Part shown: piece by piece, positions 2-4,370 of the stretch
How the letters are laid out: each line of letters begins with the position of its first letter
Position numbering within the stretch: the stretch's first letter is position 1
Assembly (NCBI GenBank): GCA_014730235.1
Contig: WJIO01000233.1
Coordinates: 1-11,951 of the forward strand
Direction: 5' to 3'
Length of the DNA: 11,951 nt
From: Candidatus Poribacteria bacterium
GTDB taxonomy: Bacteria; Poribacteria; DTPJ01; WJIO01
Notes under the pieces: generated by a model
What the model was told of the DNA's origin: nothing
Databases searched by the model: none
Seen by the model: only the letters and a program-made list of their open reading frames with translations
Translations under genes and position numbers: made by a program

Positions 2-1468
2 GAAGAGGATGTTGGCTCTTTCTATGTCCGTCTGTGGATGCCCCCGGGAACAAGGATTTCAGAGACCAGCCGGGTATTAAAACAGGTAGAAGACATTGCC
101 CTGTCTTTGCCAAAAGACGAACTCAAGGCCGTTATTGCAAACGTAGGTATTGTACAGGAAGAAGATTCAGAAACACATAACACCCATGTAGGACAGCTTA
201 TTATTGAGTTGGTGGATGCTGACCATAGGGAAAGAAGCGTTTTTGACGTAATAAACGATCTGCGAACCCGTTCCCAATCTATCAGCGGGCCCGAACGTCT
301 GGAGTTTGCGAACTGGGCAGGCGGGCCACCCACAGGTAAGGATGTTGAGGTTAAAGTAAAAGGTAAATATTTCCAAGACCTGGAAGAGATCGCAGACGAA
401 ATAAAACTTGGGCTTACCAAGCTACCTGGTGTGTATGACATTGGTGATGACTTCTCTCCGGGTAAGGAAGAGGTACGCATCCGACTTGACGAAGATCGGG
501 CCCGGCTGCATGGTTTAAGCGTGGCTCAGATAGCCGGATTTGTAAGAACAGCATTTCATGGTAACGTGGCCACCGTCTATCGCGATGGAGATGAAGAAGT
601 TGATGTGGTTGTCAAATTTAAAGATTCCTCTGAGATGCCTTTGGAAGAAATGGAAGCCCTTAAAATATCAACCCCCATGGGAACAGCAATTCCCCTCCGG
701 GATGTGGCCAATCTTGAATTAACCAGGGGTTATGCTATTATCCACAGATTTGAAGTGGAAAGGGCCATTACTGTGTCTGCCCAGGTTGACAGATCCCTTA
801 ACAAACCTGTGGCTGTAAACCGGGCAATTGAAAATGAATTTAAAGATATTAGCCAGCGTTATCCTGGATATCGACTGGATTTCCGGGGAGAATTTATGGA
901 GTTTAACCAGGCTTTTACCAGTCTTGGAAGGCTTCTGGTATTGGGCGTATTTTTAATATATATGCTTCTTGGTGCCCAGTTTAAATCCTTTGTGCAGCCC
1001 CTTATTATACTTTTCACCATACCTTTTGCCTTCATTGGCTCAATGATCGGATTGCTGGTTATCGGGTATCCCTTCGGTATACTAACTCTTTATGGAATGG
1101 TAGCCCTTGCGGGAATTGTTGTAAACGATTCTATTGTTTTGATAGATTTTATAAATGTTCGCCGCCGGGCAGGAGTATGTAAATGGAGGGCAATTATCGA
1201 AGGCGGCAGATTAAGACTGCGTCCAATTGCATTAACAACTATTACAACCGTTTTTGGATTGCTGCCTATGGCTATAGGTCTTGGGGGACAGTCGGAAACA
1301 TGGAGACCTCTTGCCAATACTATTGTCTGGGGATTATCCATGTCAACTGTTCTGACATTATTTATTACCCCGGCTTTATACGCAATTATTGATGACCTTA
1401 CTCCAAAACGCCTGAAAGAAAAGCAGATGGAAGTTTATAAAGAGCTTGAATCTCAACCTGCTGATTAA
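2..1468 (+). CDS. RND-family efflux transporter, C-terminal half (5' end outside window)
   Basis: This is the inner-membrane pump of a tripartite efflux system, a proton-driven exporter of the AcrB/HAE type. The frame is open from base 2, and the ATG at 38 is internal (the codons before it read EEDVGSFYVRLW), so the gene starts outside the window. About 488 of a usual 1000-1050 residues are visible. They comprise the second periplasmic pore/docking region (roughly nt 2-915) and then five membrane helices, near nt 920-985, 992-1063, 1075-1150, 1210-1287 and 1312-1395, matching TM8-12 of AcrB. The LGAQFKS and VVNDSIVLIDF motifs are typical. Where AcrB has the proton-relay lysine (K940) this protein appears to have Asn (GIVVNDS), as I recall for several non-AcrB RND groups. 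The substrate cannot be told. The stop codon abuts a mini-transposon, and the terminator lies about 300 bases further on. No adaptor or outer-membrane gene is visible. Confidence 0.93.
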   Translation, partial: EEDVGSFYVRLWMPPGTRISETSRVLKQVEDIALSLPKDELKAVIANVGIVQEEDSETHNTHVGQLIIELVDADHRERSVFDVINDLRTRSQSISGPERLEFANWAGGPPTGKDVEVKVKGKYFQDLEEIADEIKLGLTKLPGVYDIGDDFSPGKEEVRIRLDEDRARLHGLSVAQIAGFVRTAFHGNVATVYRDGDEEVDVVVKFKDSSEMPLEEMEALKISTPMGTAIPLRDVANLELTRGYAIIHRFEVERAITVSAQVDRSLNKPVAVNRAIENEFKDISQRYPGYRLDFRGEFMEFNQAFTSLGRLLVLGVFLIYMLLGAQFKSFVQPLIILFTIPFAFIGSMIGLLVIGYPFGILTLYGMVALAGIVVNDSIVLIDFINVRRRAGVCKWRAIIEGGRLRLRPIALTTITTVFGLLPMAIGLGGQSETWRPLANTIVWGLSMSTVLTLFITPALYAIIDDLTPKRLKEKQMEVYKELESQPAD

Positions 1469-1475
1469 TTTTAAA

Positions 1476-1596
1476 GGCTCTTCCGGGTTCAGTGTGGTAA
1501 AGATAGGAAAGTTCTTTATGCTGTCATTCCTGCTTTCGCAGGAATGACAAGCTGAGAAAATTTTCAAATTATTACCACACTGAACCCGGAAGAGCC
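1476..1596. mobile_element. MITE-like element A, copy 1 (121 bp, exact 8-bp target duplication)
   Basis: This non-coding element has perfect 25-bp terminal inverted repeats (1476-1500 and 1572-1596, starting GGCTCTTCCGGG). It is flanked by the exact direct repeat ATTTTAAA at 1468-1475 and 1597-1604, as expected from transposition with an 8-bp duplication. Inside sits a hairpin with a 12-bp stem and a 4-nt loop (1522-1533 and 1538-1549, core TCATTCCTGC). There is no ORF, so movement must be in trans. GGCTCTTC ends together with 8-bp duplications recall ISL3-family insertion sequences. That family link is from memory and no transposase of the kind is in the window. The left duplication begins on the last base of the efflux-gene stop codon, so the gene stays intact. 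The flank is A/T-only, so part of the direct repeat could be chance. Confidence 0.85.
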
Positions 1597-1610
1597 ATTT
1601 TAAATTAAAG

Positions 1611-1745
1611 CTATACTTTCGCACTTTTTAAAAGATATAACATTTATACACTTGTAGGGACACGGTATACCGTGTCCCTACAAGCCGAGAACCCTAATGA
1701 AATCTGTATTTACCGTTTTGATATATAAAAAGTGCGAAAGTATAG
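1611..1745. mobile_element. MITE-like element B (135 bp, exact 8-bp target duplication)
   Basis: This is a second, unrelated miniature element only 14 bp after element A. Its perfect 20-bp terminal inverted repeats (1611-1630 and 1726-1745) start CTATACTTTCGCAC. The exact direct repeat AATTAAAG flanks it at 1603-1610 and 1746-1753. The centre is a perfect 34-bp palindrome without a loop (1651-1684, CTTGTAGGGACACGGTA mirrored). I recall that core as a common dispersed hairpin in other bacterial genomes. It contains no ORF. The parent insertion-sequence family was not recognised. As RNA, the whole element would fold into one long stem in the 3' UTR of the efflux gene. Confidence 0.85.
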
Positions 1746-1763
1746 AATTAAAGGGAAAGACAT

Positions 1764-1807
1764 AAAAAAAATCGGGGTAATGATTTTTCACTACCCCGAT
1801 TTTTTTA
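1764..1807. terminator. Bidirectional intrinsic terminator
   Basis: A 9-bp stem (ATCGGGGTA at 1771-1779, TACCCCGAT at 1792-1800) is preceded by a run of A and followed by a run of T, so it works in both directions. It lies 7 bases after the stop of the minus-strand LamG gene and also serves the plus-strand efflux gene, from which two mini-elements now separate it. Confidence 0.88.
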
Positions 1808-1813
1808 TTTCAA

Positions 1814-2572
1814 TTAAAATCCAGTTTTTGCTTCACCCCATGTAATAGCAAGTTTATTATCTGGTTTAACTGCTGTAGCATTGTGAGGATCTTCCATATC
1901 CATCATGATTTCTTCTTCAGACAAAGCATAATTGTATATTTTCAACTCATCAAGAGCGCCGATCATGAATCTGGAACTACCACCTCTTGCGCCAATAAAC
2001 ATGGGTTCATCATTTGTTAAAAGCGTACCAGCGCAGGCCATCTCTGCATCGACGCTACCGTCAATGTAAAGTTTTATAACCTGACCATCCCATGTACCAG
2101 TCAGAAAATGCCATGTGTTATCCTGAATATTGCTACCAACGTTTTGATCAGCACAATCGGCAGGCAGGTCTTTCATCTGAAGAATAGTACCACCATTATA
2201 AAGAGGAGCCAGGTTATATTCTCCATCTATCCATGCAGAACCTTTTTCTGCTGCGCTCTGGATGCCTTCACCACCACCATACAGGATAACCCATGTACTT
2301 ATGGTAAGACCTTCAGTTAAATTAAGGCTATCATCATGGGGGATTTCACCCCATGTAGCGCCATCAAATTCCATTGCTTTGCCAAATTGACCGCCAATCC
2401 ATTGAGGATTACCCATAAACGAGCAGTCATTGCCAAACCCCGAAGCATCAGCGGCGATTTGTCCTGCTCCTTCATCAAAAGATAAGTGCAGAACAAGGTC
2501 ATTTGCTGCATAGATGGTTGAGGATATAACCAATAGCAACAAAGCAAATATAGTAATAATTATGTTTTTCAT
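1814..2572 (-). CDS. Secreted LamG / concanavalin A-like lectin domain protein
   Basis: The predicted product is an exported 252-residue protein with a single LamG (concanavalin A-like) jelly-roll domain, probably carbohydrate- or surface-binding. Residues 1-23 are a signal peptide (MKNIIIT, hydrophobic core, cleavage near YAA). The domain spans about 25-216, with the usual landmarks LVLHLSFDEG, the TISTW strand, WHFLTGTWDG..IKLYIDG and a final IGALDELKIYNYALSEEEI. A short tail follows, with a KLAITWGEAK motif at 240-249 that I recall at the C-terminus of many LamG proteins of Poribacteria-like genomes. The start at 2572 is preferred because AAAGGAGAG lies a few bases upstream and the signal peptide begins there. 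An upstream in-frame ATG at 2626 would put 18 polar residues before it and lies at the predicted promoter -10. There are no catalytic glycosidase motifs. The ligand is unknown. Confidence 0.85.
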   Translation of the reverse strand: MKNIIITIFALLLLVISSTIYAANDLVLHLSFDEGAGQIAADASGFGNDCSFMGNPQWIGGQFGKAMEFDGATWGEIPHDDSLNLTEGLTISTWVILYGGGEGIQSAAEKGSAWIDGEYNLAPLYNGGTILQMKDLPADCADQNVGSNIQDNTWHFLTGTWDGQVIKLYIDGSVDAEMACAGTLLTNDEPMFIGARGGSSRFMIGALDELKIYNYALSEEEIMMDMEDPHNATAVKPDNKLAITWGEAKTGF

Positions 2573-2624
2573 ACATTCTCTCCTTTTATCTGTGTTTGTG
2601 TCAATAACAAATGATTCCATTAAC

Positions 2625-2653
2625 ATTCTACTTAAACATCAAAATATGATCAA
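2625..2653 (-). promoter_or_regulatory. Candidate sigma70-type promoter for the LamG gene
   Basis: Reading the minus strand, TTGATC (2648-2653) is followed after 17 bases by TAGAAT (2625-2630), matching the consensus at 4 of 6 and 5 of 6 positions. Transcription would begin near 2618, about 46 bases before the chosen start codon, and would exclude the upstream ATG at 2626. Confidence 0.5.
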
Positions 2654-3862: not shown

Positions 3863-3935
3863 GGCTCTTCCGAATTGAGTGTGGAAATAATTTAAAACTT
3901 TCTAAGCATGTCATTCCTGCTTTTGCAGGAATGAC
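3863..3935 (+). repeat. MITE-like element A, copy 2 (left part only)
   Basis: The sequence begins GGCTCTTCCG, continues through GAGTGTGG and an AATAATTT run, and ends in the same core hairpin as copy 1 (TGTCATTCCTGC with its complement). It follows copy 3 and the reverse complement of copy 1 over about 58 bases with scattered differences. No matching right terminal repeat or target duplication could be found, so it is a decayed or one-ended copy. Confidence 0.65.
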
Positions 3936-4124
3936 AACTAAATTATATCCATTTTTTAACGATTACTTATTGTTAATAATGACATTATATCTGCAATATA
4001 AAATAGGATCAAGGTTGATTTGTTTTCTGCTTTACAATAATATTGCAAAGCAATATAATGTCCGAAATTAACAGAAACAAAAATTTATGGATTCAATCAT
4101 AAAATTTATGTCCGTGAAAACTTT

Positions 4125-4286
4125 GGCTCTTCCGGTCTGAGTATGGTAATAATTTGAAAATTTTCTCAGCTTGTCATTCCTGCTTCAAGCTTTTTAAAAA
4201 GCTTGAAGCAGGAATGACAAATGGAGGATATTTTTTTCTTAATTGGACAATGTTTTTTACACTTCCACACCCAAACTGGATGAACC
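4125..4286 (+). mobile_element. MITE-like element A, copy 3, with 50-bp perfect palindrome core
   Basis: The left arm (from 4125) matches the reverse complement of the right half of copy 1 at 55 of 59 positions. The right arm is more decayed: its outer 22 bases match the left end at 16 positions. The flanking repeats AAAACTTT (4117-4124) and AAAACTTC (4287-4294) agree at 7 of 8 positions, again an 8-bp target duplication. The core, 4171-4220, is a perfect palindrome of 50 bp with no loop. It is the usual CATTCCTGC stem extended by a TTCAAGCTTTTT arm. There is no ORF. It lies upstream of the amidohydrolase promoter and does not disrupt it. Confidence 0.75.
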
Positions 4287-4370
4287 AAAACTTCTGACAT
4301 AGACTAAAAACTTTATTTGTTACTCCGTTCTTCGCAGTAACACAGGTATTAAAATTTATGCTTGGATTAA

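Follow-up and report, generated by a model that had tools for sequence, protein, structure and literature searches.

The window examined here, a stretch of 11,951 nucleotides from a Poribacteria bacterium, lies on contig 162 of a 5.53-Mb draft assembly comprising 451 contigs. It begins within an RND efflux gene that converges on a neighbor across a terminator-like hairpin, and the A/T-rich gap 3' of the efflux gene contains two short elements, designated A and B, that are separated by 14 bases. The relevant features are as follows.

2..1468, plus strand: 3' part of an RND (AcrB/AcrD/AcrF-type) efflux gene (open reading frame; Pfam ACR_tran, E = 1e-87)
1466-1468, plus strand: stop codon TAA of the efflux gene (open reading frame)
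1468..1475: left 8-bp target duplication of A, ATTTTAAA (sequence, and the family-wide peak at 8 bp)
1476..1596: element A, a 121-bp ISL3-type MITE with 25-bp perfect terminal repeats GGCTCTTCCGGGTTCAGTGTGGTAA and central palindrome TGTCATTCCTGC..GCAGGAATGACA (sequence, family, fold)
1597..1604: right 8-bp target duplication of A, ATTTTAAA (sequence)
1603..1610: left 8-bp target duplication of B, AATTAAAG, which has AA in common with the repeat of A (sequence)
1611..1745: element B, a 135-bp MITE with 20-bp perfect terminal repeats CTATACTTTCGCACTTTTTA and central palindrome TTGTAGGGACACGGTATACCGTGTCCCTACAA (sequence, family, fold)
1746..1753: right 8-bp target duplication of B, AATTAAAG (sequence)
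1765..1806: terminator-like hairpin, flanked on both sides by A and T runs, between the two convergent genes (fold)
1814..2626, minus strand: convergent neighbor gene with a Laminin_G_3 (concanavalin A-like) domain (Pfam, E = 4e-23)
about 3863..3971: hybrid repeat, an A-family left half joined via a shared palindrome to a C-family right end (..CATTTTTTAACGATTAC; end coordinate set by eye)

The sequence-only reading of this DNA had described two unrelated mini-transposons in an A/T-rich spacer, each with its own terminal repeats and an exact 8-bp duplication, the two duplications overlapping by 2 bp (AA at 1603-1604). Direct reading bears out this description, and all of the coordinates are correct. 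The left duplication of A starts on the final base of the efflux stop codon, such that the stop of the efflux gene is retained. Also as predicted, excising both elements and leaving one repeat copy of each yields a plain spacer, ...GATTAATTTTAAATTAAAGGGAAAGACAT..., that runs into the hairpin at 1765-1806; the same junction, with the outer flanks joined through one repeat copy of each, reads ...GATTAATTTTAAATTAAAGGGAAAG..., and the predicted uninterrupted spacer is TAATTTTAAATTAAAGGGAAAG, with a single-copy junction of ATTTTAAATTAAAG. Since the targets overlap by just 2 bp and each duplication has remained perfect, the order of the two insertions cannot be told.

Both elements fold strongly as RNA, A with 25 outer pairs (-82.9 kcal/mol, z = -16) and B with 20 complementary terminal bases (-55.5 kcal/mol, z = -11), which results from their inverted-repeat structure. 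Folds of this stability, situated between a stop codon and a terminator, might be retained by the host for a role at transcript ends (as terminators or 3' stabilizers), but such a role is very improbable: the folding is a consequence of the inverted repeats, there is already a good terminator apart from them, copies show no bias to 3' ends, and the elements carry fresh target duplications. The two ends of A display no matched variation at base 3 that would signal selection on a paired RNA and, if anything, differ (Fisher P = 0.07). A role of the A and B hairpins at transcript ends is possible, though unsupported by placement. An Rfam search of the window matched no family.

Element A belongs to a very large family. 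Across the whole genome, the 20-bp core of its end has 417 forward and 432 reverse matches with up to 3 mismatches, versus 1 for the reversed control, and a 22-bp version has 419 and 416. The same search recovered only 0 to 14 A-type ends in each of 83 other genomes of the phylum, indicating that the amplification of A is specific to this lineage. In a sample of 100 random contigs (0.954 Mb), 168 A ends resolved into 53 paired units and 62 single ends. Perfect 8-bp repeats flank 22 of the 53 paired copies, versus 0 to 2 at each other length tested, and the mean identity of the flanking repeats is 0.74 at 8 bp versus 0.35 to 0.51 at other lengths, so the tabulation of flanks that the sequence-only reading had called for shows a peak at 8 bp only. 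This sharp peak is the behavior of the ISL3 family. Some copies (L022, L027, and L030) differ from most others in that the central palindrome carries its 4-nt loop (TTTC or GAAA) in flipped orientation with respect to the arms.

The search for an orthologous empty site yielded no congener: a scan of genome contigs revealed no near relative, and the nearest genome compared is from the same order only, with efflux homologues at most 55% identical. Empty sites are available inside other repeats of the host genome itself: when the flanks of A copies are joined, minus one repeat, they match uninterrupted repeats elsewhere at 100% (L016), 98.6% (L014), and 96% (L003). These near-identical empty sites indicate that A inserts with an exact 8-bp duplication. 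The window also contains, at 4270-4370, an unoccupied copy of another repeat (GGATGARCCAAAACTTCTG..ATTTTATGCTTGG) that is filled by A in L014 and L016, the empty-site version having been recognized by eye.

Several lines of evidence connect A to the ISL3 family. The 22-bp pattern of its end, GGNTCTTCCGGGTTNAGTGTGG, has exact matches in several other phyla, and in three Nitrospirota contigs (L265, L272, and L274) it is situated at the end of an element whose encoded protein has DDE_Tnp_ISL3 (PF01610), HTH_Tnp_ISL3, and ISL3 zinc-ribbon domains. These insertion sequences, which come from MAGs, have the exact 22-bp end in common with A but differ in being autonomous and about 1.4 kb in length, with a PF01610 transposase and an unrelated interior. 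Element A thus combines terminal repeats that match an ISL3 element, an 8-bp target duplication, and a length of 121 bp without a transposase in several hundred units, as expected of an ISL3-derived MITE. A full ISL3 element bearing the end of A was not found in the host genome, where a multicopy insertion sequence may be missing from the draft assembly. The ISL3 transposase is represented there by three fragments, all at contig edges, and the sole visible end differs from that of A. Two ISL3 transposase fragments (L091 and L092, on G000:C342 and C236) are located on short contigs next to primase-like and regulator genes; these contigs could be foreign or contaminating.

A closely comparable element is the 187-nt ISL3-type MITE of Microcystis aeruginosa PCC 7806, which lacks a transposase, forms a stem-loop, is mostly intergenic, and occurs in about 31 to 33 copies (PMC11448079). 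It has GGCTCTTCG ends and 8-nt direct repeats, and its proposed mobilizer is an ISL3-family transposase that shares these ends (PMC11448079). Like the Microcystis MITE, A has a terminal repeat that starts with GGCTCTTC(C/G)G, 8-nt repeats, no transposase, a stem-loop, and a mostly intergenic distribution (PMC11448079). Unlike it, A is 121 bp long, its 25-bp ends are near-perfect, it has hundreds of copies (versus about 31 to 33), and the ISL3 element with the ends of A is seen in other phyla and not in the same genome. Element A is therefore a new ISL3-type MITE of an already known sort, of which the copy number and degree of nesting stand out.

Family B is much smaller. Its end, CTATACTTTYGCAC, has 54 matches in the genome (25 + 29, with up to 1 mismatch) versus 5 in the control, and there are about 17 complete copies. 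Element B is short, has inverted ends and a target duplication, and occurs in several copies, as MITEs do. Among 18 pairs of ends, perfect duplications are 6 bp in 6, 7 bp in one, and 8 bp in the window copy; in a further copy, located inside the right terminal repeat of an A element (L042), TATCCG (6 bp) is duplicated, and excision restores an A-type end. Hence, the characterization of B as a family with 8-bp duplications does not hold, 6 bp being usual: the 8-bp repeat of the window copy is real but atypical, and its agreement in length with that of A is coincidental. The duplicated 6-mers of B do not conform to a single motif.

The autonomous partner of B was sought among unpaired B ends in the host genome, B ends in related genomes, and PF01609 and IS1634 transposases, but no locus with B ends emerged. 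None of the five genomes searched had a B-ended transposase gene, viral contigs carrying the B end were not recovered, and a literature search on the end sequence returned nothing relevant. Members of the IS1634 family produce A/T-rich duplications of 5 to 6 bp, variable in some members, and have the weak end consensus C-----YT (PMC2266710). The end of B, CTATACTT, fits this consensus, and its duplications are mostly 6 bp, though 7 and 8 bp are also present; unlike B, the single complete IS1634 element seen in the phylum has ends CTATTGGATTTGAGG (L332). An IS1634 origin of B is not supported, as 0 of 19 loci from the five genomes have B-type ends around a transposase gene, a result that leaves room for distant or lost copies. 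In a genome of the same order (G001), B-type ends occur at contig edges (L298 and L300) and are followed about 100 bp inward by AAGGAG..ATG AATGCTTTCTTTCC, possibly the start of the transposase gene of B. A 122-bp end from a relative recovers only a decayed relic in the host genome (G000:C330:2753-2866).

A third MITE family, C, has ends GTAATCGTTAAAAAATG and duplications of 5 bp in 12 of 27 cases and 6 bp in 5 of 27. On the minus strand of L239 (G000:C228, about 1100-2420), a gene for a 412-amino-acid DDE-type transposase lies between C-family ends GTAATCGTTAAAAAATG; the protein is weakly similar to IS1182 and IS5 transposase models, and the locus is likely the autonomous parent of family C. 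The central palindrome GTCATTCCTGC..GCAGGAATGAC is common to A and C, and A/C hybrids exist. The hybrid at 3863-3971 in the window, which is joined at GTCATTCCTGC, suggests that MITE families have recombined through the core that they share. Nested insertions include B in A, C in B, and A in C, and in one case a C element lies within B with GATAT duplicated (L117/L044). The C-B junction lies at an identical GATAT site in three copies of B (L117/L044, L035, and L121), reflecting either recurrent targeting or one insertion that was spread by copying.

The distribution of A relative to genes bears on the suggestion that the two insertions mark a true hotspot after the efflux gene or, alternatively, that both families generally prefer the A/T-rich 3' ends of genes. 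Both insertions do fall between the stop codon and the terminator, and the targets of A are A/T rich, with a G+C content of 13% in the duplicated 8-mers versus 33% in the flanks. Of 115 A units, 108 are intergenic, whereas random 120-mers are intergenic in 12%. Within intergenic DNA, however, 64% of A copies are in tandem gaps, 21% in divergent gaps, and 14% in convergent gaps, against 61%, 27%, and 11% of intergenic bases, and within tandem gaps, 35 copies are nearer to the stop codon and 22 nearer to the start codon (two-sided binomial test, P of about 0.1). There is thus no excess of A at 3' ends or in convergent gaps, and A copies do not cluster among themselves. The preference for A/T-rich targets therefore stands for A, but that for 3' ends does not, the difference being nonsignificant; a hotspot after the gene is not borne out, since A follows gap lengths without convergent or 3' bias, and it is not needed. 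Either form of this explanation is improbable.

Unforeseen by the sequence-only reading, B co-clusters genome-wide with other MITEs. Among 30 B copies, 9 have an A end no more than 50 bp away (2.0 expected) and 8 have a C end at such a distance (1.4 expected); 16 of 30 have one or the other within 50 bp, compared with 3.2 expected (P of about 1e-8), roughly fivefold over intergenic chance; the size of the effect is rough, as the null is crude, relying on a simple ORF caller and 30 B copies, with some pairs representing C inserted into B. An A/T-matched null gave the same picture for B near A. As a baseline, chance alone would place about 4 to 5% of intergenic positions no farther than 20 bp from an A unit. 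A shows no clustering with itself and only a weak excess near C (11 versus 5.3 expected).

This clustering raises the prospect that the transposase of B actively prefers MITE borders (palindromes, cruciforms, or A/T-rich edges), in which case B landed beside A because A was there. Consistent with such a preference are the excess itself, the B copy inside an A end (L042), a second 14-bp gap between B and an A end (L039), and the lack of such clustering of A with itself. Against this, the sample is small, some of the pairs are C inserted into B (L044 and L035), pairs could become enriched in the absence of targeting if certain gaps are tolerant of insertion, and the duplicated 6-mers of B lack a single motif. 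A border preference of this kind is conceivable but unlikely as the reason for the arrangement in the window, and somewhat less likely still is the broader claim that the B transposase is drawn to existing MITEs, with different families building nested clusters by mutual targeting and not by shared tolerance. The excess of B near MITEs may reflect shared tolerance of certain gaps, older MITEs that serve as neutral ground, or a preference of the transposase of B.

The spacing of the two elements could also be read as that of a single composite unit that moved as one, as they are just 14 bp apart and the A-14 bp-B spacing recurs in L039. This is hardly credible, being contradicted by the perfect 8-bp duplication that each element has of its own. 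Moreover, the B copy in L039 is in the opposite orientation with a different intervening sequence, and other copies of either family are not generally paired.

Elements A and B are very probably two independent non-autonomous MITE insertions into one A/T-rich intergenic spacer, A having been moved by an ISL3 transposase and B by another DDE transposase. Under independent insertion, an ISL3-family transposase would act on the GGYTCTTCCGGGTTYAGTGTGG ends of A, its staggered cuts duplicating 8 A/T-rich bases, and the movement of B would depend on another DDE transposase whose duplications are usually 6, and sometimes 7 to 8, bases long. Two separate cut-and-insert events would have occurred, with each staggered cut repaired into its own direct repeat. 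Their closeness does not call for a dedicated site: the genome contains several hundred A units along with the other MITEs, selection confines these almost wholly to intergenic DNA, which constitutes about 9 to 12% of the genome, and older MITEs would offer newer ones a neutral A/T-rich landing ground.

The accumulation of mobile elements in tolerant spots is already known, with elements of several families piling up in IS hotspots (PMC9208149); those are full insertion sequences, whereas the elements here are MITEs at a spacing of 10 to 50 bp. The pairing of A and B is therefore ordinary mobile-DNA biology in a densely nested MITE landscape: a bacterial genome with several hundred ISL3-type MITE units and at least two other MITE families, mutually nested. 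Such MITEs break draft assemblies, supply hairpins at transcript ends, and preserve a record of insertion order and target choice, and the mutual clustering of families amounts to a testable statement on target choice by bacterial mini-transposons.
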